Shown here: positions 26,158-56,092 of the stretch, in pieces
Layout: the number at the start of each line of letters is the position of its first letter
Numbering within the stretch: position 1 is the first letter of the stretch
NCBI GenBank assembly: GCA_963930775.1
Contig: OZ005702.1
Location: forward strand, 2,418,001 to 2,482,000
DNA length: 64,000 nt
DNA from: Cliona cf. orientalis
Lineage: Eukaryota > Porifera > Demospongiae > Clionaida > Clionaidae
Direction of reading: 5' to 3'
Notes under the pieces: model-generated
The model's input: the letters and a program-made list of their open reading frames with translations, nothing else
Database searches by the model: none
What the model was told of the DNA's origin: nothing
Translations under genes and position numbers: made by a program

Positions 26158-29100
26158 ATGCATACTTCATTCAAAGTCTCTGTTAGGCTGGTGCTTGCTT
26201 CAGTTCTGCTGGGTTTGCTCAACTACCGGCACGTGGAGTGTAGAGTGGTGCATCCAAAGTCATGTACCAACATATCATTTATCATGGATGCTCAAAATGA
26301 ATCTTTACTAAACAATGCCCTGATGAATCTATCGAATCATACTGTTCTTGACCTTCAACCTGGAGAGCACTGTATCTGGAATAATACACCGATTCGTAAC
26401 CTGGCGATGGTGACTATTCATGGCGAGAATAATAATACTTTTATCAAGTGTAAACCTGGCAAAGGACTTGCTTTTTATGACGTAGAAAATCTCACTATTG
26501 AAGGAGTGACGATACTACAGTGTGGACTTGATAGTAGTGCTATTGAAACATTCAAGGATCTCGTAAGAACCACTATTGATTTTTTCTTTGGCATATCCAA
26601 TTCTTCTGACAACTACATTGCCGTAGCATGTGCTAAATGCACTAATTTCCAGATAAAAAATTCCGTGATTACCAATACTTCTGGTTTGGGGTTTTTGGGG
26701 ATCAATCTGGTCGGAGACTCCTGGATTGAAAATACTAGCTTCACTGGTAATGTGCCCAAGGGCTGCTTTCATCTCTCTGTAGATGACATCCAACAGAATG
26801 AAAACACTGGTGGGGGTGCTTTGATAATCTATCATGATGCACATGACAAGCTATCTGATGAATATCCTGATTCCTCTCTACACATTAACAACTCGTTCTT
26901 TTACAATAACTCCTATTGTGGACTTCAAGGTGTCTATGAGATATACTCTCACTTTTCCGAAGAGTTTTCCACCAAAAATTTCCTCTTGGGCGGAGGTGGG
27001 GGACTGTCAATTCTTCTTACGCAAATCCACTACCGTGTGAACGTTACTGTTGAGAAATCCACTTTTGTGAACAATACAGCTGGATACGGGGGTGGGGCCA
27101 ATGTTGAAATCTTTACTGCCGTATTTGATTCACATGTCTCATTCGAGGATTGTAACTTCAACAAGAACGGGATCGCAGGTAATCTAGTGCTAAATCTCGA
27201 CTATGCTACAGCTGGGTCTGGGCTTCTGTTTATCACAGATATTCTACAACCTACTTTCAATCGCAGTGTGGACATAATTCCAGAAATTGAACACGTACCG
27301 TGCACTTTAAGTATATCTGGAACAAATTTTACCGAGAATCGTGGTTTTAGTGGTGGTGCTATCCTTATCATATCCCTCTATGCCCCTCTACTTGGCGGGA
27401 CTCTGCAGGAAGAGCTTCACATCTCATCATGTCGCTTTGTGAGCAATTTCGGAGTGCTTGGTGCTGCTATCTATGCTCAAGAGTGGAAGCAGTCCATAGT
27501 CCAACGTGGCCTGGACATTATCTTCTATAACGTTACATTTGACAACAATATTGTGTACAGCCTCAGTGACCTTACGACCTCCACTCAGACCTCTGCTGTT
27601 ATTGAACTAATAACACTCAACGTGACCTTTTCAGGAGACAGCGTAATAGCTAATAGCACTGGAACGGGACTCCGAACCACAAGCAGTGTACTCATCGTAA
27701 TGGATGATCTCACTTTTTATAACAATAGTGGATCCTTTGGTGGGGCACTGAGATTAGAGACTGGAGCACTGATGGTACTCAGGAACAATACTAATGTAAC
27801 CTTCTCCAAAAATACAGGCGCCGTATATGGTGGTGCTGTTTACTCAAGCACTGTAGCTACTTTACCTTCTATATCCCAAGTCGATTGCCCTATTTATTTT
27901 GGACATTTGAATCTACTTTGCTTCTCCACTACACATTCTGATTGTAATGACATCACTGAATTCAATACCAATGTGATATTCGAAGGAAATTCAGCTCCAC
28001 TTGGTAGTATGGTTTATGGTACAACCCTCGAGACTTGCCCTTGGGCTTTACAACTGAGGAATAAATATGAACTTCAGAATAGCAATCTCACCCTATTCGA
28101 ACTTCTCGCTGATGAATTACTGTGGAATGAGAGCAGTTTTTCATCACCTTTTGTCTTTGACAAGCCTCCCAACAACATAACCCAGGTATCGACAGGGACA
28201 GCGAGGATTATCTCAAATAAATCAGAAATCATTGCTATTCCTGGAGAAACGATCACAATTGGAATTCAGACTCTTGACCAATTCAATCGAAGTGTACCTA
28301 CTGTATTAACATCACTGGCATCTTCTGATGCGCGAAATGTACATGTTTCTACTCTTATTGGCGGCAGCAAATACTTCCTTCTACAGCAGAGCAACGACCC
28401 AGACAATCTCACCGTGGAAGCTAACATCACTTTCTATGGTGAAAAAGGTGTGAACAGTTCAAGCGTGTCTCTCTTCTCACTTGTATCTTTAAGTCAGTCG
28501 GAGATCACCGTAAACTTGACCAGTTGCTTAGATGGCTTCACGTATAGGAATGCTAGTCACTCGTGTGAATGTAGTGATCTGATAAATGCCCAAACTTCAA
28601 GGGTGGAATGTGATCACCATGATTTCACACTTCATGTTTCCCAAGATAGGTGGATTGGCCTTGGGCCAAATGATGAATTATTTATTGCAGATTGCCATTT
28701 TGACTATTGCCTTGGAGGGACAAGGATAATAAAGCCTCCTGACTTTGATAAGCAGTGTCAAGAAGGCTACAATCGTAGTGGCATTGTCTGTGGTAATTGT
28801 ACAGAAGGCTATAGTACAGTATTTGGCTCCAATCGCTGTCTGAAGTGTTCGAATAAGTACGTTTCGATGATCATTGTATTTGCTCTATTGGGAATCGCCC
28901 TTGTTTCTGCAATATCGTTTTTGCAGATTACGATTTCAGAAGGCTATCTGAATGGAATGCTTTTTTACGCTAATGTTTTAAACCTTTACTTGCCGTTATT
29001 GACAAAATCTGGATCCAACATAGTTCATATATTCTTTTTAGTGTCCCTGCTGAACCTAAACTTGGGATTTGAATCTTGCTTCTATGATGGTATGAATGCC

Positions 29101-30204
29101 CTGGCACGTACTGGTCTTAACCTAGTGTTTCCATTTTACATCTTCTCGCTGATGTTTATCATCATTCTCTTGGTGAAATGGTCAAACAGATTCTCAATCT
29201 GGTTTACTCGCAATGGTTTCTCCGCCGCAAAAGTGTTTGTGACATTGCTAGTAATGTCCTATTCCAGCCTATTGGAGACATGCATTGAGATTCTTGGAGT
29301 TGATACAATACGTGCAGGCAACCATACGCATATTCGGTGGAGAATTGATGACAATCAGGCATACTTTCATGGTGGTCATGCCGCTCTTGGCTTTGTTGCT
29401 ATTATTTTGATTATTTTCCTTTTACCAATACCCTTCCTTTTGCTCTTTGAAGGACGAATATTTAAGTTTCGTATTTTTCATCGCTACAAGCCCCTTTATG
29501 ACGCTGTCTGGGCTCCCTTTAAGCCCAAATTCCGCTTTTGGGTAGGTTTACGTCTAATCTTGCGTGGACTTCCTTTCATATTTGTCAATACCATGCCCCA
29601 TCCACTCAACATTCTATTCCTAGCAACGTTCCTTGTCGCTCTGCTGTGGATACAGGGTATGCTGCAACCATTCCGTGGATTTGCACGCAATGCTTTCGAT
29701 ACCTTTTTTATTGCCGACCTACTGATTGTCATCCTACTAGCCCTTTATTTCTACATCTACTTAGCCCAATTTGAAATTACTGACAATTCAAAGCAAGATG
29801 CACTCTTTCATCGATACCAGGTTGGCTTTTACTCCGTTGTCGTAGGTGTGGCCTATATTGGGTTCCTGTTAATTATTCTTTGGCACCTAGCTTTGCGATT
29901 TCCCCGCCTGATGAAATTTCTCAATAGTTTGAAACGATTCAAGAACACAGCTTCAATCATATCCGAGAGAAAACTTGTGGCATTCGCTCATAGTGAGCAG
30001 AAGCCCACTCGATCCGAGTATGGATCCCTCAACAGTGAGGGAGTCACATCTAGCGACAGCTCGGACGAAGGAACACCACAGAACTATGACTCGGATAATG
30101 TTGTTCACGAAAGAAAGAATGTGATAACGTATTCCCAGTGGCGTGAACCCCTCCTTGAATCCGGATCATTGGAAATCGAGACTAGAGATGGTTCAGACGC
30201 ATAA
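26158..30204 (+). CDS. Beta-helix ectodomain multipass membrane protein, copy 1, intronless, 1348 aa
   Basis: The frame is open further upstream, but the first ATG is at 26158 and gives a good signal peptide (MHTSFKVSVRLVLASVLLG). Residues about 30-620 are a parallel beta-helix of the pectin-lyase/Pmp type. Short turns repeat the pattern NxxxxxGGA(L/I), for example NTAGYGGGANV, NRGFSGGAILI, NNSGSFGGALRL and NTGAVYGGAVY, with many N-x-S/T sites. A second, more compact region follows. Then comes a Cys-rich collar near residue 865: CQEGYNRSGIVCGNC and GSNRCLKCSN. About 8-9 hydrophobic helices run from residue 900 to 1250. They carry LNLGFESCFYDGMN and KPLYDAVWAPFKPKFRF between helices. The cytosolic tail of about 95 residues is Ser-rich and ends near REPLLESG. 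I do not know its function. Receptor, adhesion or transport roles are guesses. Confidence 0.9.
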   Translation: MHTSFKVSVRLVLASVLLGLLNYRHVECRVVHPKSCTNISFIMDAQNESLLNNALMNLSNHTVLDLQPGEHCIWNNTPIRNLAMVTIHGENNNTFIKCKPGKGLAFYDVENLTIEGVTILQCGLDSSAIETFKDLVRTTIDFFFGISNSSDNYIAVACAKCTNFQIKNSVITNTSGLGFLGINLVGDSWIENTSFTGNVPKGCFHLSVDDIQQNENTGGGALIIYHDAHDKLSDEYPDSSLHINNSFFYNNSYCGLQGVYEIYSHFSEEFSTKNFLLGGGGGLSILLTQIHYRVNVTVEKSTFVNNTAGYGGGANVEIFTAVFDSHVSFEDCNFNKNGIAGNLVLNLDYATAGSGLLFITDILQPTFNRSVDIIPEIEHVPCTLSISGTNFTENRGFSGGAILIISLYAPLLGGTLQEELHISSCRFVSNFGVLGAAIYAQEWKQSIVQRGLDIIFYNVTFDNNIVYSLSDLTTSTQTSAVIELITLNVTFSGDSVIANSTGTGLRTTSSVLIVMDDLTFYNNSGSFGGALRLETGALMVLRNNTNVTFSKNTGAVYGGAVYSSTVATLPSISQVDCPIYFGHLNLLCFSTTHSDCNDITEFNTNVIFEGNSAPLGSMVYGTTLETCPWALQLRNKYELQNSNLTLFELLADELLWNESSFSSPFVFDKPPNNITQVSTGTARIISNKSEIIAIPGETITIGIQTLDQFNRSVPTVLTSLASSDARNVHVSTLIGGSKYFLLQQSNDPDNLTVEANITFYGEKGVNSSSVSLFSLVSLSQSEITVNLTSCLDGFTYRNASHSCECSDLINAQTSRVECDHHDFTLHVSQDRWIGLGPNDELFIADCHFDYCLGGTRIIKPPDFDKQCQEGYNRSGIVCGNCTEGYSTVFGSNRCLKCSNKYVSMIIVFALLGIALVSAISFLQITISEGYLNGMLFYANVLNLYLPLLTKSGSNIVHIFFLVSLLNLNLGFESCFYDGMNALARTGLNLVFPFYIFSLMFIIILLVKWSNRFSIWFTRNGFSAAKVFVTLLVMSYSSLLETCIEILGVDTIRAGNHTHIRWRIDDNQAYFHGGHAALGFVAIILIIFLLPIPFLLLFEGRIFKFRIFHRYKPLYDAVWAPFKPKFRFWVGLRLILRGLPFIFVNTMPHPLNILFLATFLVALLWIQGMLQPFRGFARNAFDTFFIADLLIVILLALYFYIYLAQFEITDNSKQDALFHRYQVGFYSVVVGVAYIGFLLIILWHLALRFPRLMKFLNSLKRFKNTASIISERKLVAFAHSEQKPTRSEYGSLNSEGVTSSDSSDEGTPQNYDSDNVVHERKNVITYSQWREPLLESGSLEIETRDGSDA

Positions 30205-30990: not shown

Positions 30991-32028
30991 TTAGGGAATA
31001 ATGTGTGGATCAGGGCATACTTTGGGATGGATCGGTTTTGGATTGATGTTCGAGATCTGTTTCATTTCATCATCTGAGAGCTGAAAATTGAAATAGTTTA
31101 GATTCTCCTTCATGTGGTCTTGATTGAGCGTACGTGGGTTCACCACTATGCCCTGCTGCCATTCCCAGCGCTGGACCACCTGGGCAGCCGAGTGGTTATG
31201 AGCCTTGGCTATGTCTTGGATAACGGGCAACTGTAGGATAGTGCCGTTCCAATGGTGAGCGGCTGGTGCCCAGTCCGGAGTACCCAGTGGGGCGTAGCTG
31301 TTGAAGGTAATGTTCTTGGACTTGCAATAGGCAACTAGGTCGTCCTCATGCCAGTATGGATGATATTCAACCTGGTTCACCGAGGGAATGGAACCATTTA
31401 GCTTGATAATGTCTTCTATATGGTTTTGCTCAAAGTTGGAGACTCCAATAGCCCAAGCCTTGCCAGAGCTGTACAGTTGCTCCATTGCTTTCCACACTGA
31501 CTGGCGACATGCTGCATAAGATTTTATGTCGAGGAGTTTGCAGGCAGGATCCTTGCTTCCAGGAGCAGGAGGTCCTGGCCAGTGGATTAGAAGTAGATCA
31601 ACATAATCCAATTGCAGATCACTTAAGATCGTGTCCATCTGCTCGAATGTCTCGTTGTATCCGTTTGGCGACAGCTTTGACGTCATAAAGAGGTCCTCTC
31701 GGGCGATTCCACTAGCCTTGATGGCCTTTCCGACGCCAACTTGGTCCATGTAGCCGAAAGATCCGTCAACTCGACGTCCTCCAAGCGCGAGCCACTGCCC
31801 GACAACAGTTTCAGCAATTGAGTCGTTCCATACCTCTCCAGGGACGCCCGTGTTCTCTTTATGCACGTAGCCCCAAGTGCCGATCCCAGCAACTGGCATC
31901 TTCATCCCTGTCTTTGCGGCGTTCATCAGAGGCACGCTGGGGTCATCAGCAACGAGGGAGTAGGGAAGAAGTGTCAGAACGAACACGGCCTGTAGTAGCG
32001 CCATCGTTACCAATGCAGCATGCAGCAT
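30991..32028 (-). CDS. Secretory aldo-keto reductase, array copy 1
   Basis: ATG 32028 (MLHAALVTMALLQAVFVLTL) gives a signal peptide; an internal ATG at 32004 would too and looks more like the other copies. The frame is open further upstream only with non-ATG starts. The (beta/alpha)8 aldo-keto reductase fold is indicated by MPVAGIGTWGY, the catalytic Asp and Tyr in RRVDGSFGY, Lys in FMTSKL, His in LLLIHWPG, GVSNFEQNH and the C-terminal NPRTLNQDHMKENL. AKRs reduce carbonyls with NADPH. Cys at DPAC, ACRQS, YCKS and KVCPDP are shared by the whole array. N-glycosylation sites (NETF, NGTI) fit a secretory route. There is no KDEL-type retention signal. It is the most diverged member of the non-7/8 group and the last gene of the array in the direction of transcription. 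Confidence 0.9.
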   Translation of the reverse strand: MLHAALVTMALLQAVFVLTLLPYSLVADDPSVPLMNAAKTGMKMPVAGIGTWGYVHKENTGVPGEVWNDSIAETVVGQWLALGGRRVDGSFGYMDQVGVGKAIKASGIAREDLFMTSKLSPNGYNETFEQMDTILSDLQLDYVDLLLIHWPGPPAPGSKDPACKLLDIKSYAACRQSVWKAMEQLYSSGKAWAIGVSNFEQNHIEDIIKLNGSIPSVNQVEYHPYWHEDDLVAYCKSKNITFNSYAPLGTPDWAPAAHHWNGTILQLPVIQDIAKAHNHSAAQVVQRWEWQQGIVVNPRTLNQDHMKENLNYFNFQLSDDEMKQISNINPKPIHPKVCPDPHIIP

Positions 32029-32137
32029 GCGTATTGTGAGCCACGCCCCTTTGCAGCCCCACCCTCTTTGCAAATTTAATAATGTAAACCACAATAAAAA
32101 AAAAACTCAAATACTAACAAATATAGCTATTAGTATT

Positions 32138-33154
32138 CTATTTAATATCATGTGGATCAGGACACACTTTGGGATTAGATGGTGGCTTAATGCTGGAGAT
32201 TTGCTTCATTTCATCATCTGACAACTCAAAGTCGAAGAAATTCAGATTCTCCTTCATGTGGTCCTGGTTCATGGTGCGTGGGTTCACCACTATACCTTGC
32301 TGCCACTGCCATCGCTGAATGACTTGGCCTGCTGAGCGTTGGTGAGCTTTGGCAATGCTCTGTATCACAGGGAGCGCTAGAATTGTTCCATTCCACTGGT
32401 GTTGAATGGGGGCCCAGTCTGGTGCACCGAGTGGTGAATAGCTATTGAAAGTAATGTTTTTTGATTTGCAATACTCCACCAAATCATCTTCATGCCAATA
32501 AGGATGATACTCAACCTGATTCACCGATGGTATCATACTGTTCATCATGAGGATGTCCTCTAAGTGATTCTTTTCAAAGTTGGAGACGCCAATAGCTAGA
32601 GCTTTGCTTGAGTTAAACAACGTCTCGAGAGCCTTCCAGACCGACTGGCGACAGCTGCGCCACGTTTGTGGGTTGCCTTGACACGCTGGGTCACTGCTAG
32701 AGTGTGGTGTCCCAGGCCAGTGGATTAGAAGTAGATCAACGTAGTCCATTTGCAAGTCACTCAAAACTCTATCCATTTGTGTGAAGGTTTCATTATAACC
32801 TTGTAGTGAAATCTTGGAAGTCATAAAGATTTCTTTTCGGGCAATTCCAGACGATTTTACTGCATTCCCCACTCCTACTTGATCTCCATAGCCCATAGAG
32901 CCGTCAATGCGACGACCACCAAATGAGATCCACTGGGATATGGCTTTTTCTGCTACATCATCATTCCAGACCTCACCTGGTTTACCTGTTCCTGGCGTAT
33001 GGACATAGCCCCATGTACCAATGCCAGAGACTGGCATCTTGGTACCTGACTTTGCTGCATTCATCAACGTCACACTAGGCACATCTGCTACCACTGGCTT
33101 CAGTGGAAGAATGACAAATAGAAACATAGCTATAACTATTGTGAGTGATGCCAT
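32138..33154 (-). CDS. Secretory aldo-keto reductase, array copy 2
   Basis: ATG 33154 (MASLTIVIAMFLFVILPL) opens a signal peptide. The upstream extension of the frame has only a TTG start. The tetrad is Asp/Tyr in RRIDGSMGYGDQ, Lys in FMTSKIS and His in LLIHWPG. Cofactor-site motifs are GVSNFEKNHLEDI and NPRTMNQDHMKENL. Its C-terminal third (from LPVIQSIAKAHQRSAGQVIQ to KVCPDPH) is almost identical to copies 5 and 6, even at silent sites, whereas the N-terminal half is clearly different. The start of copy 1 is about 110 bp downstream of its stop. Confidence 0.92.
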   Translation of the reverse strand: MASLTIVIAMFLFVILPLKPVVADVPSVTLMNAAKSGTKMPVSGIGTWGYVHTPGTGKPGEVWNDDVAEKAISQWISFGGRRIDGSMGYGDQVGVGNAVKSSGIARKEIFMTSKISLQGYNETFTQMDRVLSDLQMDYVDLLLIHWPGTPHSSSDPACQGNPQTWRSCRQSVWKALETLFNSSKALAIGVSNFEKNHLEDILMMNSMIPSVNQVEYHPYWHEDDLVEYCKSKNITFNSYSPLGAPDWAPIQHQWNGTILALPVIQSIAKAHQRSAGQVIQRWQWQQGIVVNPRTMNQDHMKENLNFFDFELSDDEMKQISSIKPPSNPKVCPDPHDIK

Positions 33155-38493: not shown

Positions 38494-38652
38494 ACTTCAG
38501 AACAATTCCTAGAACAGGTTAACCGTGCTCACATGTACTGAGATTTGCAAGCTCCAGGGGGTGTGACTCTTTTTAATTGATGCATAATATATTCAATAAT
38601 TGTCACAATAATATTAATCATGATGTATGTACAGTCAGCACAATGTATACTC

Positions 38653-41447: not shown

Positions 41448-41745
41448 TTATCTTCTTGGTCAATCTGCTTTTTCTGTCTTCTGGGTCCATTTTTCAGGGC
41501 TGAGTACAGTGGTGTAGCTCAGAGCCATTGAAATCTAGTCACCCAAAAATGACCAAATTTCTACCTCTTCCACTTTGAATAATGCAGAGAATGCTGAAGA
41601 AGCTCCTATTTCCAACACATACGATACGGATAGCTACATCAGACAAGCACAGCACTGCTAAAAATCAACCTTCAGTTAGTGAGCTAAGAGAACCACTTGG
41701 AATCTGGAACGGCGGATATTTATGATATTGGTTCATCATTCATGG
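41448..41745 (+). pseudogene. Decayed 3'-end remnant of a beta-helix/multipass membrane gene
   Basis: The segment aligns with the 3' part of the gene at 42460-46494. gggctgagtacagt with gtagctcaga and ctagtcac matches the ggtcagagtacagc, gcggctcaag, ctagtcac region (about 46060-46105). aatgcagagaatgctgaaga and gtgagctaagagaaccactt match about 46300-46420, including the REPLLE tail codons. The last membrane helix between these blocks is missing, and frames are lost. It is a fifth family member, reduced to a stub between the reductase array and copy 2. Confidence 0.75.
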
Positions 41746-42459: not shown

Positions 42460-45400
42460 ATGAATCTATGGCCAGCTTTTCTTCTACTTGTCAGTCTTCA
42501 AAGTCACATTACTTTCGCCGACGAAATAGCCGACGATGATAGATATTGGATAGTCAAGCGTGACGCTTCCGAGCAAGAATCAGAGGGGAGTGGCTCGTTC
42601 GTCAATGTCAGCGACGACAGCGCTACAAATCTCATATCAGCCCTGTTAAATATCACGTCTCACTCCACGATCCGTTTGGAACCTGGAAACTATACAATTG
42701 ATCGGTTCGTGTTGGTTCAAAACGTTACAAATGTCAGCTTGGAAGGCAGTGGCAATGAGAGAGGTGTGTCCATCCTCTGTGATGATGGTGCTGGATTAGC
42801 GTTCATCGGTGTTTCTTACCTAACAATCCGCAACATTACCGTAGATGGGTGTGGCTTCACTGGAGGCGATATTGAGAACGTAATTGATATTCTGAATGAT
42901 ACGGTGAACATCTTTTATGTCATTCCTCCAGTGGTGCGTATTGGTATGCTTCTTGGACACTGTGAGAACTTGATAATGGAGCACGTGACAGTAAAGAATA
43001 CGAGAGGTTTTGGCCTGGTGGGCATCAATGTGATTGGAATTTCTCAGTTGAGAAATGTTTTATTCTTTAATAACACAAACTCTGGAGTCTGCAATGTAAC
43101 AAAGTATTCTGTCCCTAATAGTGAGCTTATTCCCTACGACTCTGCTAACCAGTTAGGAGGGGCATCTGTTTTCATGTTTTTTGATTATCATAACCAGACA
43201 ATCTACCGAGGAAGCAAATTTATGCTGAGCCTTCAAGAATGTTCGTTTATTTCCAATGCTGAGTGCAGTTTAGTCTATCTCAATCTCTTGCGTTCACCTG
43301 GAAGGGGGGAGTCAAGGTTTGTGACTGATGTAGGGTATAGACTGGGAGGTTCCGGAGCATTTGCACTGGCCTTAGCTCAACGTCAGTATGGAGTTAATTT
43401 GAATGCAACATCATCGTTCTTTTACAATAATTCAGCAATTTTTGGAGGTGGAGTTCTGATTACTTTGTTTGCCGGAGTTCATGATACGCATGTTACATTC
43501 AATAACTGCTGGTTTAATGCAAGTACTGTATCAATCTATAGTGATGTCCGCCAACCTGCAAGCATTGGATACGATCCCTCTTTGCCCTTCCAAAACACTG
43601 CTATCTCTATGCTAAATTCAAACTTTACTAACAGCACAATACTGAACACCGGAAGTATGTTCATATATTCAAACTACTACACTGCAGTAGGAAACAATGA
43701 TGAAGTGGTAAAATTTTATATAGAAGGATGTGTGTTTGCCGAAAACCTTGCATTTATTGGTTCTGCCATAGTGATCTATGAATTCAAAATCAACGGTTTT
43801 GCAGTTGGAATTCAGGTATCTATCAAGGACACTCATTTCATTGACAATCAAATCATTACTGCTGATCGAGATGCTGTCATTACTGTTTCTCAGAGTGCTG
43901 GAACAGTTGACATCAGAAATGTTAATCTTACTCTTCATGGTAACTGCTCATTTGTAGGAAATACTGGAACTGGACTTCGAGCAGAATCAAGCCTGGTAGG
44001 AGTGAATGGCAATATCACCTTCCTAAGAAATACTGGAATCCTTGGAGGAGCGCTATATTTAGTGACGTACGCCTACCTGATAATGAACAGAAATTCTTCG
44101 ATTTACTTTATCGAAAATGAAGCAAGAATAGGAGGTGGTGCAATATACGTCAACGAAAATGGTCTCAATTCTTACCTTGTTGGAGGCTTTCAAGACTGTT
44201 TCATTCATTTTGCATATGATAATTTCAATTTATGCGAAGATTGCTCAGATTTGGACAGATATAACGTGTTTATAAAATTCTCAGGAAATACTTCACCCAG
44301 TGGGGGAAGTATGGTGTCAGGCTCCTCTCTCTTTACTTGCCCCTGGGCCTATGATTTGATTGTTAGGGATAATATGATTATTGATCAATCAGTATTTGAA
44401 ATCCTTGATCAAAACTTTACAAACGTTTTCAGCTTTGATGAGCCTCCAAATAGACCTGCTTTGGTTCGCTCGACTGCAGCAAGATTGATAGTTGATCATC
44501 TCTTTGAGACCAATTTAAACGTCATTCAAGTTTTTCCAGGTCAAATATTTTATGCTAACATCTCGGCAGTTGATGATTTTAACAACACTATTGGAAATGT
44601 TATTGCTGCATATGCTACATCAAATACACCCACCACCGATAGAAATACAGTAACACCACTCTTGGGTTCAAATGCTTTTGGAGTATTATCTGACAATGTA
44701 CCAACAATGATTCCCATTAGAGTTCTTGGTATTGAAAATCAGAGCGTTAGCCTCGTGGTCTATTCTACTGATCCAGGTGGACGAGCTCAAGAACAGATAA
44801 ATATCAGTCTTTATTCATGTGGATTTGGATTCGTATTCAATACACAGGTGCAGATTTGTGCATGTGATGCCAGACTGGAGAGTCTAGGTATCTCGTGCAA
44901 TAATGAAACCCAAGAAATTGTTGTTCCAGATGGCCTGTGGATAGGACCATTTTCTGACGAAATTGTAGTTCATGGTTGTATCTTCAGTTACTGCCGACCA
45001 GGAGAGAAGGATATTCTCATCTTGACCCCTGATGATGCAGATGTTAATTTTGACGTACAGTGTGATGCCAGCGTGAACAGAATAGGATTTCTTTGCAGCA
45101 GCTGTGCACCTGGCTATAGTTCTGTGCTGGGCTCAAGAAGATGCAGACAGTGCTCTAATGCATACATTCTGCTCTTTCCAGTGTTTATAGCAATCGGAAT
45201 CTTGGCTATTTTTATGATAAGATACTTAAACATCACAATTACTGCTGGATTCGTCAATGGAGCAATATTTTATTCCAACATTGTTTCACTCTATGGATCT
45301 GTTCTAGTGCCTGGTGATACACTGACTAATGGGGCCATTGTTCTTATCTCATTTCCCACTCTTAATCTGGGCTTTGAGACTTGCCTTCATGATAAGATGA

Positions 45401-46494
45401 GCACACTGGAGAAGGTATGGTGGCAACTCAGCTTTCCTCTATATCTCTTTGTGCTGATGGGTATCACTACTCTCCTTGCTAGAACAAAGTATTTAAAATT
45501 TGACCGATCGAGTGGACTCAGCACTATTCAAGCATTTGCTACTCTCCTAATACTGTGCTATGTGAGTGTTCTTGAAGTCTGCATTGAACTTGTGGGATTG
45601 AGGAAAATTTATTCAATTGATGGTGTTCGTCATGTTCAGTGGATAAGTGACCCTGTTGTGAAATACTTCGGACGTGAACATGGAACTCTTGGTTTTTTGG
45701 CTTATGTGATACTGGCTATCTACATCATTCCTCTGCCTTTCTTCTTACTGTTTCCTTCTTTTCTTTATCGAAATAGGCATTTGAACAAATTCAAACCTAT
45801 CTACGATGCTTTCTGGGATCCATACAAACCAAAATATCGTTTTTATCTCGGCTTTCGCTTGATATTTCGTTGGATTCCTTTTGCTTTGGGTATTTTCGTT
45901 CGTCCACCAATCAGTATTTTTGTGACAAACTTCCTTCTTATAATTCTTGTTGCTGTTCAGGTTGACATTCAACCATTTCGAGAGAAATGGACAAACAAAA
46001 TTGATGCTATCTTTTTATATAGTCTGGTTCTGCTTTTTTCAGGATCCACCTTTTTCTGGTCAGAGTACAGCTTTGCGTCGGCTCAAGACGATCGAGACCT
46101 AGTCACTTATCTTAGTCTTGCGTATAGCACCATTTTTATAGTTTTCGCATTTTTGGTGATGCTCGGTATCTTTGGCTATCACATTATAGTGCGATTTCCA
46201 AAATTACATGCGCTTTTTGGACGCTGGTGGAACAAAACTCCAATACAGAAGATATACACTATTCAGCCTCCCAGGAATGGCTATGTTGCTACCTCCTCTA
46301 ATGCTGAGAATGCTGTAGAAGCCATTCCCTCTGAGACAAGCAGAAATACAACCAATAACGGCAGTACTGGTAGTACACAGCCTCTAGTTATTTCTGCCAG
46401 TGAGCTGAGAGAGCCACTTTTGGAATCCGGAACTATTGATGTTTATGATGTTGACCCCTCATCAGTGCCTACTCGAACGCAAACAACATACTAA
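42460..46494 (+). CDS. Beta-helix ectodomain multipass membrane protein, copy 2, intronless, 1344 aa
   Basis: ATG 42460 gives a signal peptide (MNLWPAFLLLVSLQSHITF). KRDASEQESEGSG just after it could be a basic cleavage site. The beta-helix ectodomain (to about residue 620) has turns such as NNSAIFGGGVLI, NTGILGGALYLV and NEARIGGGAIYV, with many N-glycosylation sites. The Cys-rich collar near residue 866 reads CDASVNRIGFLCSSC, GYSSVLGSRRCRQCSN. About 8-9 membrane helices follow, with LNLGFETCLHDKM and KPIYDAFWDPYKPKYRF between them. The cytosolic tail is Asn/Ser/Thr-rich and ends with ELREPLLESGTIDVYD and about 15 more residues. It is closest to copy 3. Function unknown. Confidence 0.92.
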   Translation: MNLWPAFLLLVSLQSHITFADEIADDDRYWIVKRDASEQESEGSGSFVNVSDDSATNLISALLNITSHSTIRLEPGNYTIDRFVLVQNVTNVSLEGSGNERGVSILCDDGAGLAFIGVSYLTIRNITVDGCGFTGGDIENVIDILNDTVNIFYVIPPVVRIGMLLGHCENLIMEHVTVKNTRGFGLVGINVIGISQLRNVLFFNNTNSGVCNVTKYSVPNSELIPYDSANQLGGASVFMFFDYHNQTIYRGSKFMLSLQECSFISNAECSLVYLNLLRSPGRGESRFVTDVGYRLGGSGAFALALAQRQYGVNLNATSSFFYNNSAIFGGGVLITLFAGVHDTHVTFNNCWFNASTVSIYSDVRQPASIGYDPSLPFQNTAISMLNSNFTNSTILNTGSMFIYSNYYTAVGNNDEVVKFYIEGCVFAENLAFIGSAIVIYEFKINGFAVGIQVSIKDTHFIDNQIITADRDAVITVSQSAGTVDIRNVNLTLHGNCSFVGNTGTGLRAESSLVGVNGNITFLRNTGILGGALYLVTYAYLIMNRNSSIYFIENEARIGGGAIYVNENGLNSYLVGGFQDCFIHFAYDNFNLCEDCSDLDRYNVFIKFSGNTSPSGGSMVSGSSLFTCPWAYDLIVRDNMIIDQSVFEILDQNFTNVFSFDEPPNRPALVRSTAARLIVDHLFETNLNVIQVFPGQIFYANISAVDDFNNTIGNVIAAYATSNTPTTDRNTVTPLLGSNAFGVLSDNVPTMIPIRVLGIENQSVSLVVYSTDPGGRAQEQINISLYSCGFGFVFNTQVQICACDARLESLGISCNNETQEIVVPDGLWIGPFSDEIVVHGCIFSYCRPGEKDILILTPDDADVNFDVQCDASVNRIGFLCSSCAPGYSSVLGSRRCRQCSNAYILLFPVFIAIGILAIFMIRYLNITITAGFVNGAIFYSNIVSLYGSVLVPGDTLTNGAIVLISFPTLNLGFETCLHDKMSTLEKVWWQLSFPLYLFVLMGITTLLARTKYLKFDRSSGLSTIQAFATLLILCYVSVLEVCIELVGLRKIYSIDGVRHVQWISDPVVKYFGREHGTLGFLAYVILAIYIIPLPFFLLFPSFLYRNRHLNKFKPIYDAFWDPYKPKYRFYLGFRLIFRWIPFALGIFVRPPISIFVTNFLLIILVAVQVDIQPFREKWTNKIDAIFLYSLVLLFSGSTFFWSEYSFASAQDDRDLVTYLSLAYSTIFIVFAFLVMLGIFGYHIIVRFPKLHALFGRWWNKTPIQKIYTIQPPRNGYVATSSNAENAVEAIPSETSRNTTNNGSTGSTQPLVISASELREPLLESGTIDVYDVDPSSVPTRTQTTY

Positions 46495-46866: not shown

Positions 46867-49800
46867 ATGTGGTGGCCGATTGCTCTGCTGCTTCTGTACA
46901 CTAGTTTGCATGTGCCTGAGTACAGTGGTACTTTTGGCTCTCAAGTCTTTATTCAGCCTAACGGATGTGATGAATCAAGCGGACGTGGTGGATTTGCTCC
47001 AGACGATTCTTTGCCCAAAGATGAAAATGCCTCATATTATGGTACTCCATACAAGAATTATTGTACAGAGGATCTCACAGCTGCCCTGAATGCAGTGGTA
47101 TCTCATACCACAGTCCACTTGGAAACTGCAAACTACTCAATTGATCGATTCATTTTGATTCAGAATGTTATTAATATCACTTTGGAAGCTGAACTCGAGG
47201 GTGTGTCCATTCAGTGTACTAAAAACGCTGGGTTAGCCTTTGTCAATGTATCCCAGCTATCAGTATTCAATATTGTCATTGACAGATGTGGCTTTACGGG
47301 AATAGATATTGAGAACACATTGGATATCATGAAAAATATTGTGAATGTATTCTACATTATTCCTAAGGTTGTGAAAATTGCTATGCTATTTGGACATTGT
47401 GAGAATGTAACATTGGAGAATGTGACAGTCATGAACACCAGAGGCTTTGGTCTAGTGGGAATCAATGTGATTGGATCCTCACAGCTAAACAGTGTCCTTT
47501 TCTTCAACAACACACACCCTGGAACATGTGTATCACCACATTTCCTTGGGATTTTTCCCAGTAAGTCCATTGACTTTGACTCCCGTAACAGGTTAGGAGG
47601 AGCTGCTGCTTTCATGTACTTTGACTACCATGATCAAACACTCCATCGTGGGAACTGGTTCACCTTAAGAATTCAGAACTGTAACTTCACATTCAATGCA
47701 GAGTGTAGCATTGTCTATCTTAATCTTTTGCGCATACCTGGTAGAGGGGAGTCCAGCTTCATAGCAAACACTGGGTATAGATTAGGAGGTTCTGGAGCAC
47801 TATCATTAGCACTAGCTCAGCTTCAATACAGAATAGACATTGTTGTCAAGGAGTCAACTTTCAATACGAATAATGGGAGCAGTGGGGGTGGAGTTTTGAT
47901 CTCACTGTTTACAGGAGTTCGTAATACCCATGTGACCTTTGATGACTGCCAGTTTGAAAAGAGTGCTGTGGCATTTTTTAACGACATTCGTCTACCACAA
48001 AATATAGCACATGCTGTTAATCTTCTCAACAGAGACACCTCAATCTCTCTACTCAATTCTAATTTTACCAACAACGTAGCACAAGGTTTAAACAGTACTT
48101 TAATTTTGTTCTCCAACTATTATTCTGCTGTCAATAGCATCAGTGAGGTTGTACGCATCTACATCGATAACTGCAGTTTCAAGGAAAATCGAGCATTTGT
48201 TGGTTCTGCTATAATAATCTACGAGCGTAAATTTAATGGTCTTGACGTTGGGATGCAGGTATCCATCAAGGATACAGACTTCATCAATAATGAGATCCTC
48301 AATGCTGATCAAGATGCCATTGTCACCATTTCCCAGAGTGCTGGCACAGTCGACATCAGAAATGTTAACCTTACTTTTATCGGCAACTGTTCGTTCATCA
48401 ATAACGTGGGAACTGCACTTCGCACCGAATCAAGCATGATCGGAGTCCATGGAAACATCACATTTTTGAGAAACATTGGAATCTATGGAGGTGCATTGTA
48501 TTTGGTGGAATTTTCCTATTTGATAATGAATAGAAACTCTTCAATTTATTTTTTAGAAAACGAAGCAAGAATAGAAGGTGGTGCCGTATTCGTCAATGAA
48601 AATGGTCTTAACTCCCACCTTATTGGTGGTTTTGTAGACTGCTTTATCCACTTTGCTTACGACAACTTTGTTCTGTGTGAGAACTGTTCTGATTTAGAAA
48701 GCTTCAATGTGTACATTCAGTTTTCTGGTAATAGAGCACCCGGTACTGGAAGGATGGTATCTGGATCAGCCCTCTCTACATGTCCATGGGCCTTTGGTGT
48801 TTTAAATCAGAGTACGAATCCCGATAAATCTCTGTTTGAAATTCTAAGTAAGGAGTATTCGAGTACTTTTAGCTTTGATGAAGTTCCAGATAATCCCACC
48901 TTAGTCCGTTCAGCTTCTGCAAGATTAGAAATCAAGCACTTGGATTCATACCAGTCTAAAATTACTCAGGTATTTCCAGGACAAGTGTTTCATGTAAATA
49001 TTTCTGCAATTGATGATTTTGAAAATACCGTATCGAACGTTGTAGCAGCTTTTGCTTCTACTGATACACCTATCAACTTAATTGAACAGAACACCGATTA
49101 ATCCATATTTGGGCTCAAATAGATTTGCGGTACTGGAAGAGAACAAACCAACAACAGTGCCAGTTAAAATCACCGGAAAAGAAAGCCAAAATGTAAGTCT
49201 TGTGATCTATTCTACTGATACTGCTGGAAGAGCTCAAGAGCATATTGACATTGAGTTATTCTCCTGTGGCTTTGGATTTCAATTCAGTACCCAAGAAGGA
49301 ATCTGTGTGTGCAACCCTCAACTTACTCAGCGTAGCATAACATGCAAAAATTCCCGAGAACTAGTAGTACCAAATGGCATTTGGATAGGACCATTTATTA
49401 GGAAGGGAATAATAACTGTTGATCAATGTATACATGGATATTGCAGGGCTGGAGAAAAACTCATCAGAGTTCCAACTCCTAATGATAACAAAATTGATTT
49501 TGATATTCAGTGCAATCCTGAGATGAACAGAGCTAGATTCCTTTGTGGCAGCTGTAGAGCTGGCTATAGTGCTGTGCTCGGCTCTAGACGATGCAGGCAG
49601 TGTTCTAACTGGTACATCCTGCTCTTCCCTGTCTTTCTTATGGTTGGAATATTAGCAATTCTTCTCATAACACACCTGAATGTTACCATCACTGCTGGAT
49701 TTATCAATGGAGCTATCTTTTATTCCAATATTGTTTCAATATACGATTCAATTCTAGTCCCTGGAGGCACATTGACAAATGGAGCAATAGCTCTTGTATC

Positions 49801-50871
49801 ATTTCCTACACTCAACTTAGGATTTGAGACGTGTCTTCATGATAAAATGACAGCCTTGGAAAAGGTTTAGTGGCAATTGAGTTTCCCACTTTATCTGTTT
49901 CTTTTGATGGGTCTTACAACATGTTTAGTCCGTAACAAATGCCTTAAGGTCAAGCAATCAACCGGATTCAACACAATTCAGGCATTTGCTACCCTCCTAA
50001 TATTGTGCTATGTTAGTGTTCTTGAAGCCTGCATTGAACTTATTTCTCCTAGAAAAATCTTTACTATTGACGGCAGTGACCATGTTCAGTGGATAAGTGA
50101 CCCATCTCTTGATTACTTCGGTGCAAGGCATGGTATTTTAGGGTTCTTAGCATATGTAATCATTCTCCTATATATCATCCCTTTACCAACCCTATTGCTG
50201 TTCCCATCAGTACTGTACAAGAGTAGGTATTTTAGCAAGTTCAAGCCTATCTACGATGCCTTCTGGGACCCTTTCAAGCCAAATTATCGATTTTATCTTG
50301 GCTTTCGCCTAATCCTTCGATGGATTCCTTTTGCTTTGGCAACCAATGTGCGAGCTCCTATTAGCGTATTTATAACAAATATCCTTTTAGTTCTTCTTAC
50401 TGTTCTTCAAATCAGCATACAGCCATTCGAGAACAAATGGGTGAACTATATCGACTCTGTCTTTGTACTCAATCTCGTACTACTCTTTTCAGGATCCCTT
50501 TTCTTTTGGTCAGAGTACAATTATAGTTCGGATCAAGATGCTGTCACCTATTATGCTCGCATCTATAGTGGCATTATCATTATCTTTGGATTTCTGATCT
50601 TGCTAGGTCTATAGTATTTATTTACCACGTTATCGTACGGTTTCCTCGGTTAAATACATTCATTGAACATTGGCTTAAAGATCCAACTTTGATAGTACGC
50701 TATCACCAAAGGAAAAAGAATGCTCAATCTGATATTCCTGTAGCCATCAAGCAAGAAGATCAAAGTCAGCAGACTAATAAGCCTGAAGTTGTTCAAGTCA
50801 CTGTCTTCAGAGAGCCACTTTTAGAGTCAGGAGTTGTAGAACTCTCTAGTATTAGCCCTCATCCTAAATAA
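46867..50871 (+). pseudogene. Beta-helix multipass membrane protein, copy 3, recently broken
   Basis: ATG 46867 (MWWPIALLLLYTSLHVPE) begins a frame that follows copy 2 closely over its whole length, but it is broken three times. There is a frameshift near 49085 between STDTPIN and PYLGSN. A TAG at 49868 stands where copy 2 has TGG (EKV, stop, QLSFPLYLF against EKVWWQLSFPLYLF). A second frameshift near 50612 comes just before the part encoding YHVIVRFPR. All other landmarks are present: the collar (GYSAVLGSRRCRQCSN), LNLGFETCLHDKM, KPIYDAFWDPFKPNYRF and the tail REPLLESGVVELSS. The excellent preservation between lesions suggests recent loss, or errors in the sequence. Confidence 0.82.
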
Positions 50872-52177
50872 GCACTGCATACTGGGAAATATTCTCTGAG
50901 TTGCTACTGTATTGCCACTGAAATAGATCAATTATCTGCTGCATGATTGCTTTGTGTGTATCTTACCTTGCCATGACATTATGATAGTAATATGGTTGCT
51001 TTAGTATGTTTATTGAGCAGTATCCACCTCACACATAATCCGAGCATGCATGAACAAGCACTTGCACAAAAATGGAATACATGTACATGAAACAATCATA
51101 ATATTATGGTACCGGTAGTCAGGCCATGCAGTGGCTTGCATATTTGGTCATCTGAATTGTGTTCAGCTACCTTCTGAAATATTGGGAGTGATATCCCGAG
51201 TTTAGAATACCTCAGGGCTATTTCACTCACACTCATTGCTAAGAGTTTTACAGTGTGTATGGTTATTGTAGCAGAGAATTCACTTAGCGTTGCTACTGCT
51301 TTATGCACCTTTTATATCAATGTCAACAGCTTAACATGGTTGTAGAGCTTCATAAGGTTCCAATTCAGTAATGAATTTTGGAGCCAAGTTAATTGATTAC
51401 AGTGGTCTAATGAAATTCTATAGTGAGATAGCTAATGGTCGCAATGGTTGTAGCTTAGTGCTAATGCTCAAAGAGCCTTGGTGCTTAATAATGTTGATGT
51501 TGCTTATTAATTCCTCTCCAAGCTGACCCTCCCACTAAATCCTGAGGAGAATGTTGAGTTGGAATGCTCACTGCAGCCTGGAGATTTTTGTGCTTACTCT
51601 TCAAGAGGTCTTCAATAAATTCATACTTACCTAGCTTATAGACTGACCACGTCAAGTATGGTAATCTTTATTGTCTAAGCAAGAAACATAATATCTATCT
51701 ACATGTGGCTATAATAATATGATAGTCCACAATCATCATACAGTGACACAATGAAGATGTGGCATCCAACTTTATTGCCTATCTCCTTCTATTACAACCT
51801 TCGAAATAACAAGCTAGGAGTACAAACAGCTGAACTATTTTTACTCTTTATGAAGACCATGCTTACTTATTGAGTGTATGTATTAAAACGGTTCATTTAC
51901 TGAAAGTATTATAAAAACAGTGTCAATGCCCACTTTGAACAATCACTAGTACAAACAAGGAATTGATCATGACATGTGGAACAATCATGTTGCCATCCCA
52001 CGATAGCTACAATTGTGCAGTGCTTCATCAAATTTGGCCACCATCACCGTGACCAAGAAGCATAACAATTATTACAACCATGGCTAGTACGGTATTTTTA
52101 AATACAATAATAATATTATCACATGATCTGCTAATGAATAAAAGTCTTGCATTGTATTGTGCCACTTATGCAATCGT
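50872..52177. other. Gene-free stretch between membrane-protein copies 3 and 4
   Basis: About 1.3 kb. No open frame with a domain was found, and I saw no remnant of the neighbouring family. The DNA is AT-rich, with a single tacatgtaca near 51080. The right end should hold the promoter of copy 4. Confidence 0.4.
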
Positions 52178-55100
52178 ATGGTCGAAGCAGTCATGGCTGT
52201 CACTGACCCGAGCAACATGCGATGGATAGTGCCCTTGCTGATGATTGTGAGTTCTCAAGTTCCAACCAATCTTTGCCAGGTAGCTCGAGAAACTATCACA
52301 GTGTACACAGACTGTAGCAATTCTTCCGTCAATATTGATAGTGGAAACTCACAGTGTGTGGAGCTGGATGAAGCACTATCCTCTGCTGATTCAGGGATGG
52401 TCCTGTACCTGCAATCTGGAGTGCATACCATTCACAACACAACTACCATTAGTGGACTAACTAATATCTCGATCGTTGGAATGAGTGAAGTGTCCAGGGA
52501 CAAGGTGGAGATAACTTGCAGCCAAGGACAGGGGCTCTCCTTCATTAACGTATCAGGATTGTTTCTAACAGACGTAACAATTTCCAATTGCGGTCTCAGT
52601 GGGGAGCCACTCAGCAGCCAAGTTGATATCCTGCGCAAATATATAGAACTGTTTCTTTACTTTCCACCTTCCACTCAAGTTGCTGTCTTTTTGGGATTAT
52701 GTGAAAATGTGTCGATCGTGAATACAACCATAACTAATACAACAGGGATAGGGCTCATTGGTATAAACGTCCTCGGAAATTCAGTGATATCTGGTATGAA
52801 CTTCACTAACAATCGCTACCCATTAACCGGCACCATAGTATTTCGGAGCAGAGTTGGTGGAGGAGCGTACTTTTTCTATGGTGACCTCCACCCCAATGTC
52901 AGTGATACTTTCTCTATGAAAAAGAGCTCGACACTCACTCTGGCTCAGTCACGATTTGAATTTAATTCTGACAGCAGTAGTGTGGCCCTGGTGGAGGCAA
53001 ACTATCAGTATATCCTATATGGTTCAGGTATAGCCATCTATCCTGTGGGGGGTGCAGGAGGTCTGGCAATAATGCTAGCTCAAAGAAATTTTCCTTCCAT
53101 CGTTCGTGTCATTTCTACTTCATTTACTAAGAATAGTGCAGCATTTGGTGGTGGAGCTCATGTGGGAATATTCTCTGGTATTGAGCACAGTCATGTTTCG
53201 TTTCAGGACTGCATTTTTGACTCAAATCACGTTGATGATCGTTACGGTTCGTCAAATGGTGGCGCTGGATTGGCCGTATTCACAGGACTCTTCAATCCAC
53301 TGCAAAGTAACTTGGCCATTGCTACTGAAAACGTTAGTGTAACAATTTCTGGAAGCTCATTCGTTGGCAATAATGCAACCAAAGGTGGTGGCCTTTTTAC
53401 GTTCTCCCTATACAATGGATTGGTATCTGTGATTGCTTCAATTAATTCAGATAGCTCCAGTAATAGTCCAGTCATCCGCCTCATAAATTGCATTTTTATG
53501 CATAATACTGCACGCTATGGTGCTGGGTTATCATTGGAGCAGAGAATCGACCATGGCTCCAATGGAAATGTTGGCGTAGAGATAAACAATGTCACAGTAG
53601 CTGAAAATGCGCTGACTGGCCAGCGAAGCTCATTTGCTAACATGGACTCTTCTGCTATGCATCTTGAAGGTATTAGTGTGACTGTTAGTGGCAAACTGTG
53701 CATCAGTGATAACACAGCTACCGGCTTGTATTTATCCGCTGGTTCGTTGACCCTCTCGAGTGGAGCAACCATCACATTGAGTAGGAACTATGGCATACTA
53801 GGAGGAGGAGTCCATCTTACTGGAAGACTTCCAATAATCATTGCCATGCCTAATTCGACACTGCTGTTTAGAGAGAACAGAGCTGCACTGCAAGGCGGTG
53901 CTATTTATGTAACCCCCAAACAGGTGACTACAACTGACGTATTGATGCCACTTAATGATGAGTGCTTCTTTTTGCCTCTATCTAGAGAGACTAGATGCCC
54001 CCCAGGAAATCTTAGTTGTTACGATCTGCAAAATCTAAACATTTATGTCTCTTTCCAAGGCAACGAAGCTCCCTTGGGTGGTGCGTTGTATGGCTCTAGC
54101 CTTGAGACCTGCTTGTGGACTACTCGTTTAAGAAGAATAAGAGACGAGGTAGCGCCTGGTCTGCAAATCTTGCAGTTCTTGGCCATTTGGTATCCAGATA
54201 GCTTGGACTTTGATCAGACCTTGGATAACCCTTCGGTTGTTAGTACAGTGCCTTCTGCAATCTCAGTCAATGTTCTTCAAGCCAAACTGATGCCAGGACA
54301 GCAAACGAGACTGAACGTTTCCATCATGGATGACTACAACAATGAAATTCCTGCTGTAATATCCTCTCTTATATCATCCGATTCAGATGATGGCTCAAAC
54401 ATAACTTCCACATTAGGCGAGTCAGGCTATTGGTTTGCAGATACGGACACATCAAATGCCACGTTTAGGATCACTGGACTGGAGAACACGCAAGTAAATG
54501 TAACTTTCTTTACGACTGATACTTTTACCACTAAAGAAGTGGTGTTCGTATTAAGTTCATGCCCACTTGGAATCATATATGATACTAGTACATCAAGGTG
54601 TGTATGTGATCCTCGTGTGAACACGAATGGAGTAACCTGTGACAACCTTACACTTGATATCAACCTTCCTAATAACATTTGGATGGGTACACTAGTTGGT
54701 GGTGATCTAGCTACTGATGGTGATGTAATAATTCACCAATGTGGTCCTGGATGCGTGCATGGCTCTAAGATGTTCAATTCCAGTGATTTCGATACCCAGT
54801 GTTCAAAAAGCCTGGGGCGATCTGGTGTCCTATGTGGTGGATGTGCACCCAGACTGAGTGCCACGTTTGGTAGCTTAGGCTGTCTAAGATGTTCCAACTA
54901 CTCATTGTTTCTCATACCCATTTTTATTTTGGCTGGCATCCTCCTCTTTGTCATGATCGCCCTTTTGGGGTTTACCATCGACAAAGGCTGGATCAACATT
55001 ATCCTATTCTATTGTAATCTGCTCAGCATATATGGGTACATAATATCAGTGACGTATGGAGGTACCGGGCTCTTTGTTCCAGCGGCACTACTCAGCTTGC

Positions 55101-56092
55101 AAATCGGCACCAATCTTTGTTTTTACGATGGAATGACTGCCCTTGGTCGAACCGGGCTACAGCTAATCTTTCCTGCTTACCTCTTTGCACTGATGGGTGT
55201 GTTCACTCTCCTTTGTCGAAGGTATTCGTGGCTTAGCAAACGATTTTCCCCAACCACTACCCTTGTCACACTCGCCATTATGTGCTATGTCAGCACCCTC
55301 AACACAATCATAGACATACTTGGAGGGATTACGCTGGTGACTCTTGAAGGGAGCAGTTCCGTACGTTGGCGAATTGATCCCAATCAAGAGTACTCTAATG
55401 GTTACCATCTGTTCCTAGTTCATGTAGCGGTTATACTGCTAGTGATCTACATAATCCCATTTCCAATCATGATGCTGTGTCCAAGCCTACTCTATCGATA
55501 TTTGAAGAGGTTTAAGCCTTTCTACGATGCTCTTTGGGCTCCTTTTAAGCGCAAGTATCGATTTTGGCTTGGTATACGACTAATACTCCTAGTGATCCTC
55601 TTTTCCCTGCCAAGGATCTTTGAAATAACTTTTATTATTCCCGTATTGATTATCTACATCATGCAATACCTGCAACTGATTCTTAGGCCATTTACATCAT
55701 CAAGTGTTAACTATGTGGACAATTTTCTGCTTATGCTTCTCTCTGTGGTGTTGCTGGGTAGTGTGTACAAGGAGCTCTTCAGCAGCACATTGTCTAGCCC
55801 CGCAATATTGTGGGTTGAGTACGTTCTCCTGGTTTTGATAGTCGTGGCAGGATATGTGACTATTGCTGTGATATTTTACATGCAATTGAGGACAAAATTT
55901 TCCATTTTGAAACGTATATGCCATGGACGTTGTATTCGAGAACCCAAGAAGACTCCTGCTGACACAACAGTGGTTACACACTCGGAAGTAGGTCTAGACG
56001 ATATCCCCTCACCGACTAGGGTTAGCTTGAACTTTGAACCAAGCAGTGACCCTGCACAATTACGAGAGAGCCTTCTTGAAAACAACTTTTAG
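52178..56092 (+). CDS. Beta-helix ectodomain multipass membrane protein, copy 4, intronless, about 1304 aa
   Basis: In-frame ATGs lie at 52178, 52193 and 52217. The last gives the best signal peptide (MRWIVPLLMIVSSQVPTNLC); I list the first. Beta-helix turns include NSAAFGGGAHVG, NNATKGGGLFTF, NTARYGAGLSLE and NRAALQGGAIYV. The collar is CSKSLGRSGVLCGGC then GSLGCLRCSN. The membrane part keeps KPFYDALWAPFKRKYRFW and a weaker form of the LGFE motif (IGTNLCFYDGM). The tail ends LRESLLENNF, a variant of the REPLLESG ending at the very C-terminus. It is more diverged than copies 2 and 3. Confidence 0.9.
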   Translation: MVEAVMAVTDPSNMRWIVPLLMIVSSQVPTNLCQVARETITVYTDCSNSSVNIDSGNSQCVELDEALSSADSGMVLYLQSGVHTIHNTTTISGLTNISIVGMSEVSRDKVEITCSQGQGLSFINVSGLFLTDVTISNCGLSGEPLSSQVDILRKYIELFLYFPPSTQVAVFLGLCENVSIVNTTITNTTGIGLIGINVLGNSVISGMNFTNNRYPLTGTIVFRSRVGGGAYFFYGDLHPNVSDTFSMKKSSTLTLAQSRFEFNSDSSSVALVEANYQYILYGSGIAIYPVGGAGGLAIMLAQRNFPSIVRVISTSFTKNSAAFGGGAHVGIFSGIEHSHVSFQDCIFDSNHVDDRYGSSNGGAGLAVFTGLFNPLQSNLAIATENVSVTISGSSFVGNNATKGGGLFTFSLYNGLVSVIASINSDSSSNSPVIRLINCIFMHNTARYGAGLSLEQRIDHGSNGNVGVEINNVTVAENALTGQRSSFANMDSSAMHLEGISVTVSGKLCISDNTATGLYLSAGSLTLSSGATITLSRNYGILGGGVHLTGRLPIIIAMPNSTLLFRENRAALQGGAIYVTPKQVTTTDVLMPLNDECFFLPLSRETRCPPGNLSCYDLQNLNIYVSFQGNEAPLGGALYGSSLETCLWTTRLRRIRDEVAPGLQILQFLAIWYPDSLDFDQTLDNPSVVSTVPSAISVNVLQAKLMPGQQTRLNVSIMDDYNNEIPAVISSLISSDSDDGSNITSTLGESGYWFADTDTSNATFRITGLENTQVNVTFFTTDTFTTKEVVFVLSSCPLGIIYDTSTSRCVCDPRVNTNGVTCDNLTLDINLPNNIWMGTLVGGDLATDGDVIIHQCGPGCVHGSKMFNSSDFDTQCSKSLGRSGVLCGGCAPRLSATFGSLGCLRCSNYSLFLIPIFILAGILLFVMIALLGFTIDKGWINIILFYCNLLSIYGYIISVTYGGTGLFVPAALLSLQIGTNLCFYDGMTALGRTGLQLIFPAYLFALMGVFTLLCRRYSWLSKRFSPTTTLVTLAIMCYVSTLNTIIDILGGITLVTLEGSSSVRWRIDPNQEYSNGYHLFLVHVAVILLVIYIIPFPIMMLCPSLLYRYLKRFKPFYDALWAPFKRKYRFWLGIRLILLVILFSLPRIFEITFIIPVLIIYIMQYLQLILRPFTSSSVNYVDNFLLMLLSVVLLGSVYKELFSSTLSSPAILWVEYVLLVLIVVAGYVTIAVIFYMQLRTKFSILKRICHGRCIREPKKTPADTTVVTHSEVGLDDIPSPTRVSLNFEPSSDPAQLRESLLENNF

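Follow-up and report, generated by a model that had tools for sequence, protein, structure and literature searches.

To our knowledge, few receptors are known in sponges for sensing microbes or for discriminating self from non-self. Proteins with a beta-helix fold often bind or cut polysaccharides, and this fold forms the ectodomain of the polymorphic membrane proteins (Pmp), one of the known systems closest to the proteins considered here. In the chlamydial Pmp the GGA and FxxN residues face inward and have a structural role, according to one report (PMC11166332), which also counts almost 200 non-bacterial proteins with the Pfam family PF02415 (Chlam_PMP). The Pmp of trichomonads are described as carrying C-terminal endocytic motifs and as raising adhesion (PMC6701047). 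Here we investigate a gene family in a 64,000-nucleotide stretch of the genome of the sponge Cliona cf. orientalis (the window; C14:2418001-2482000, forward strand), whose products are predicted to place a beta-helix on a cysteine-rich collar and nine membrane helices. In public databases such proteins may carry the name 'outer membrane protein pmp'. In our judgement the chances are about even that the products of the intact genes are recognition receptors of the cell surface and that the genes form a repertoire with regulated trafficking.

Reading frames and a tblastn search agree with the initial annotation of the window on three intact genes, one broken copy and a stub with one plan (Table 1). 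The intact genes are open over 1311-1364 codons and have no introns. Eleven cysteines of the collar, and likewise C975, are 99-100% conserved in 241 relatives, a set gathered with the collar and membrane region itself as the query, and the shared plan is therefore not due to chance. In the AlphaFold2 model of the second intact protein, P0001, the order is a right-handed beta-helix, an immunoglobulin (Ig)-like domain, the collar and nine membrane helices. Prediction of this structure had been proposed as a test of the beta-helix, which was indeed predicted. The domain order given earlier (beta-helix, collar, multipass part, tail) is present in the model, but it omitted the Ig-like domain, which occupies about 110 residues between beta-helix and collar. 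A second look at the model with VIA-align also identified the ectodomain as a beta-helix, the top chains being phage tailspikes, PL6 lyases, GH110 galactosidases, the pertactin complex 2iou_G and PfbA. The earlier description of its turns as GGA(L/I)-type holds less well: such turns are sparse in the window proteins, and Chlam_PMP exceeds its Pfam cut-off of 20.6 in one of the three intact proteins (P0003, 22.9 bits; P0002 reaches 14.7 bits and P0001 has no listing). Signal peptides were assigned by eye in the intact proteins; of these three, P0002 alone had an N-terminal segment that passed the threshold of a hydropathy scan.

The C-terminal part of P0001 is predicted as helices at a mean predicted local distance difference test (pLDDT) of 90.9. 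It has no beta-barrel, as the initial annotation had stated, and a Pmp autotransporter is thereby ruled out. Eight or nine membrane helices had been counted; nine is the best reading, from both the model and the loop charges, and the second transmembrane helix (TM2) is broken. Inner loops hold on average 15.4 lysines plus arginines and 3.2 aspartates plus glutamates per protein, and outer loops 4.7 and 6.9 (n = 121), which fits an N-terminus outside and a C-terminus inside. No GAIN/GPS or 7tm model appears in the Pfam listings of 9, 22 and 8 sequences; the missing 7tm match, together with the count of nine helices, rules out a seven-helix receptor. Where the broken TM2 begins there is a group of conserved residues, namely G930 (100%), N933 (94%), G934 (87%), F937 (88%), Y938 (92%) and N940 (93%), and if the module has a functional site, this group is its most likely position.

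The initial annotation had proposed an apparently undescribed family of a few tandem genes. The genes are one branch of a superfamily. With residues 780-1290 of P0001 as the query, 119 proteins were recovered at E<=1e-3. From a distant match, P0111, at least 2348 proteins were found at E<=1e-3 among 7999 scored candidates, and PF02415 is carried by all but two of the 120 matches listed in that search. P0111 belongs to a sister branch rich in Pmp repeats, and its own gene lies at C6:7630168 (100%) of the genome that contains the window, which comprises 216.8 Mb in 149 contigs. PF02415 is above cut-off in P0003 and P0111, and is listed for 11 of 22 relatives at E<=0.01 and for 20 of 30 at E<=10. 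TIGR01376 is above cut-off in P0111, P0116 and P0115 and not in P0001; an NCBIfam scan gave the Pmp repeat only, in P0111, P0116, P0120 and P0115. P0001 itself matches at least 39 stretches of the genome at about 33 places on 13 contigs, of which 28 places are open over at least 1200 codons. P0002 is 32% identical to P0001 in the family alignment, and the weaker matches in the genome (25-33% identity to P0001) may belong to the wider superfamily. These genome scans scored the best 35 of 1811 first-look candidates for the P0001 type, 27 of 2111 for the Pmp type and 73 of 1827 for the form described next.

The membrane module also occurs without a beta-helix. A profile search of the genome with PF06011, the fungal-type transient receptor potential (TRP) family, gave two sub-threshold matches (L022:1429-3237 and L023:1426-3189, both on the minus strand; stop-to-stop frames of 602 and 587 codons). 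Both are solo proteins made up of a signal peptide (by eye), the collar and the membrane module. Both are homologous to the module, by hhalign (Prob 99.7, E 5e-27) and by comparison of profile with profile (Prob 100, E 2.5e-39). The solo family numbers at least 728 proteins at E<=0.01, with at least 74 matches in the genome, many arrayed on C3, C15 and C5; 34 of the 74 have internal stops. At C3:3.34-3.53 Mb there is a dense tandem array of solo proteins including many stop-bearing copies, a birth-and-death pattern. Scans that used only a few short patterns found no relatives in prokaryote genome contigs or viral contigs, and a microbial or viral origin was rejected on this ground and because the genome, at 217 Mb and with Wnt matches at three places (C4, C8 and C19), is that of an animal. 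Tentatively, and at clearly less than even chances, we propose an unrecognised superfamily of nine-helix receptors in an early-branching animal, with more than 100 loci, broken ones included, in this one genome. The module would stand alone or under beta-helices of varying length, and would in one array be kept uniform by gene conversion, as a recognition repertoire analogous to those of chemoreceptors and immune receptors but with none of their folds.

To which family, then, does the membrane module belong? No established Pfam family covers it in the sets scanned (9, 22, 8 and 78 sequences, the two solo proteins, and 30 members for which the best 25 of 38 families were covered), weak hints at lax limits aside, in agreement with the initial annotation. 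DUF7630 (PF24633) lies on the collar below its cut-off of 27, at 20.3 bits in P0001 and 21.5 bits in the collar and transmembrane (TM) piece of P0001, and is found at lax limits in 7 of 22, 7 of 8, 19 of 30 and 3 of 78 relatives, in listings that give no cut-offs for these members. DUF2721 reaches 15.4 bits on a piece of the broken copy against a cut-off of 28.3. DUF7789 appears in one of the 78 solo sequences (E 2e-4, in a listing that gives neither its place nor its cut-off), MOLO1 in five of the 78 (best E 0.004, lax limits) and DUF1600 in one of 30 members (E 0.006). Sequence searches of the PDB gave no significant match for the module, TMIE at E 0.26 not being significant. A structure search with the model of residues 660-1290 returned top rows that hit the Ig-like domain only, so the absence of a membrane match there is no evidence of a new fold. 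By sequence comparison the module can be placed in no known family, and it is possible, if rather doubtful, that it forms a category of its own.

An alternative is that the module is distantly related to the fungal-type TRP family (PF06011), or is some other channel or transporter, and that the beta-helix acts on it as a lever that senses a ligand or force. The two solo proteins are the only PF06011 matches at E<=0.01 in the genome, and TM2 is broken and has conserved polar residues. In BFVD, a library of viral structures, three giant-virus (Megaviridae) proteins rank 1, 3 and 6 at probability 1.00, with TM-scores on the target of 0.51, 0.45 and 0.47 over 380, 332 and 418 columns; the last is named 'Transient receptor potential ion channel'. 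However, the PF06011 scores (22.5 and 21.8 bits) are both under the cut-off of 28.5, hmmscan of the same two proteins gave no family at E<=1, and the module is without a PDB sequence match. PF06011 is also absent from the Pfam listings of 9, 22, 8 and 78 sequences and, for the 30 members, from the best 25 of 38 families. The root-mean-square deviations of the BFVD matches are 9.5-11.7 A, for alignments whose ranges are not shown, which leaves the TRP resemblance as a lead only. We regard this explanation as fairly unlikely.

The tails of the window branch keep a (L/F)REPLL(E/D) box, the best-conserved part of the tail, which had gone unnamed in the initial annotation and is still there in the broken member. 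In 93 of 121 family proteins RE[PS]LL falls within the final 120 residues, against 0.06 expected in shuffles and none elsewhere in these proteins; a looser version occurs in 95 of 121 against 5.1 expected. In pairs that are 60-80% alike the box is 0.83-0.89 identical and the remaining tail 0.23-0.38 (83% and 23% for pairs 60-70% identical overall). Solo-form tails have the canonical acidic dileucine [DE]xxxL[LI] within their last 40 residues in 57 of 102 proteins, against 5.9 expected. In the Pmp-rich branch a box [YFHR][ST][VILE][VILF]E[ILVMF] is found in 44 of 119 tails against 0.1 expected. The tails of this branch (P0123-P0241) end in a conserved T(Y/F)SVVE(I/V)-type box, which we take to be a form like the immunoreceptor tyrosine-based inhibitory motif. 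Each branch thus seems, from its sequences, to keep a tail signal of its own.

How the ectodomains evolve differs between branches. When pairs of the window branch are sorted into eight identity classes, the identity of the beta-helix lies 0.02-0.09 below that of the TM part in all classes but the lowest, in which it is 0.01 higher; for pairs 60-70% identical the values are 0.63 and 0.69. Two paralog pairs have unsaturated synonymous divergence (dS), with ratios of nonsynonymous to synonymous divergence (omega) of 0.39 and 0.26 for the helix and 0.43 and 0.18 for the TM part, which indicates purifying selection. In a cluster of three window-type copies (L024, L025; C11:2626500-2639800) identity is 76% in the collar but 33-36% in the helix and 46-64% in the membrane part; that the collar is more alike than the parts flanking it suggests gene conversion of the collar. 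The Pmp-type relatives are arrayed on C6 (L034-L041, C6:7.63-7.96 Mb) as eight loci with open frames of 1534-1933 codons, a range that points to a varying number of turns. In this array the ectodomain dS exceeds that of collar plus TM in every pair except L037-L039 and L039-L040 (26 of 28 pairs); five of the ectodomains are incomplete in the stretch used. For the seven pairs with L034, dS is 0.231-0.507 in the ectodomain against 0.071-0.291 in collar plus TM. Omega is below 0.9 in all comparisons and mostly 0.3-0.5, giving no sign of gene-wide positive selection. L037, L038 and L039 are about 99% identical. Ectodomains that diverge on a homogenised membrane base suit a recognition repertoire.

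Known allorecognition loci also show ectodomains diverging while the base is homogenised, as this sister array does, and tandem arrays including broken copies would likewise be expected if the proteins were self/non-self receptors of the animal. In the window type, though, helix identity is nowhere more than 0.09 under TM identity, and the two paralog pairs whose dS is unsaturated have a helix omega of 0.26 and 0.39; we consider an allorecognition role quite improbable. The initial annotation had guessed at self/non-self recognition, adhesion or sensing; the sister array favours the recognition part of that guess, while the conserved window ectodomains under purifying selection speak against a hypervariable self-marker.

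If the intact genes do encode recognition receptors, the long beta-helix, which is rich in N-glycosylation motifs, would bind glycans or particles outside the cell (microbes, food or other cells), held above the nine-helix base by the Ig-like domain and a disulfide-type collar. The membrane module might then signal, gate or transport, and the box of the cytosolic tail would recruit a cytosolic partner, probably a controller of trafficking. The genes would work as a repertoire through tandem arrays, gene loss and gene conversion, with the sister branch varying the ectodomain on a uniform base. Several observations weigh against this. Foldseek scores for the beta-helix model are weak, with two matches at E<=0.001, the best being 8yk1_A (E 5.8e-5, probability 0.66), so that the beta-helix call depends on the second look with VIA-align and on the strand pattern. 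The predicted template modelling score (pTM) of the whole P0001 model is 0.65, which makes the arrangement of the domains uncertain. The canonical acidic dileucine is found in the last 40 residues of 0 of 92 window-branch proteins against 6.5 expected; it is thereby ruled out as the tail signal of this branch, and a trafficking role for the REPLL box is a guess. Finally, the window-type ectodomain has no excess diversity and falls little short of the membrane part in conservation, which, with the purifying selection, weighs against a hypervariable self-marker. The proteins could alternatively be structural or adhesive surface rods, in which a membrane anchor carries the beta-helix as a passive spacer or homophilic adhesin. 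Dense N-glycosylation motifs (28, 34 and 21 per intact protein) would agree with rods, as would the end-to-end stacking of Pmp beta-helices in published models (PMC11166332). Nine conserved helices and a broken TM2 are more than a mere anchor would require, however, and a solo form without the rod exists; we consider rods unlikely.

Table 1. Members of the family in the window and domains of P0001 (window positions)
Feature	Position	Strand	Remarks
Intact member 1 (P0002)	26158..30204	+	Open reading frame (ORF) open from 26110; in-frame ATG at 26158
Stub, relict C-terminal tail of a further copy	41563..41698	+	tblastn, family proteins against window, E 2.9e-08; corresponds to residues ~1282-1328 of P0009
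Intact member 2 (P0001, 1344 aa)	42460..46494	+	Protein chosen for structure prediction
Right-handed beta-helix ectodomain of P0001 (predicted)	42664..44154	+	About residues 69-565
Ig-like domain of P0001 (predicted)	44482..44811	+	About residues 675-784
Cysteine-rich collar of P0001	44818..45153	+	Residues 787-898
Nine-helix membrane module of P0001 (predicted)	45157..46194	+	Residues 900-1245; TM2 broken
C-terminal box ELREPLLE of P0001	46402..46425	+	Residues 1315-1322
Broken member	46867..50871	+	Frame changes near 49.08 kb and 50.61 kb; in-frame TAG at 49868-49870
Intact member 3 (P0003)	52217..56092	+	ORF 52157-56092; ATGs at 52178 (first) and 52217; Chlam_PMP above Pfam cut-off

Between members 1 and 2 lie eight tandem single-exon genes of aldo/keto reductase type (30991-41245, minus strand, 328-396 codons), an assignment based on Pfam matches of two of these genes (E 2.8e-33 and 1.5e-42). 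Six-frame Pfam scans of the flanks at 12.4-17.3, 21.0-25.9 and 56.1-61.0 kb gave no family at E<=0.01. A tRNA at 8043-8114 on the minus strand has an Rfam match of 41.6 bits and no ARAGORN match. Elsewhere in the genome there are arrays of cathepsin-like cysteine proteases in single open frames (C16:190354-197654 and 4848102-4863163), and a further such array, apparently split into exons, near 4.51-4.58 Mb of C19. No silicatein, considered as a marker of sponges, was present among the exons inspected (two places on C19, one on C12), all of which keep QCGSCWAFS.

How do these proteins compare with known systems? A literature search, in which few subscription papers were covered, found no description of a beta-helix joined to a collar and nine helices. 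With the chlamydial Pmp (PF02415, TIGR01376) and the trichomonad Pmp they share a predicted beta-helix ectodomain with GGA/FxxN-like turns, PF02415 passing its cut-off in one of the three intact window proteins. The chlamydial proteins, however, end in a beta-barrel autotransporter (PMC11166332), where the window proteins have an Ig-like domain, the collar and nine helices. Those of trichomonads are described as often having a single transmembrane domain (PMC6701047), in contrast to nine. The fungal-type TRP-like and giant-virus TRP-like proteins have a multipass module in common with the window family, but the fold resemblance is weak, and the family and its sub-threshold solo relatives all stay under the PF06011 cut-off (best 22.5 against 28.5 bits). 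We know of no TRP-like family that has a beta-helix with this collar. Adhesion G protein-coupled receptors also carry a large extracellular domain on a multipass base, but one of seven helices, where nine are predicted here. A large repeat ectodomain on a multipass base is a known kind of protein, and the combination of beta-helix, Ig-like domain, collar and nine helices appears to be new. The collar and nine helices make up a defined module whose fold, partner and location are open to direct testing. As an arrayed, turning-over multipass family with beta-helix ectodomains, these genes provide a list of candidates for the microbe-sensing or self/non-self receptors of sponges, and they indicate that Pmp-like beta-helices, best known in bacteria, can act as the ectodomains of animal membrane proteins.

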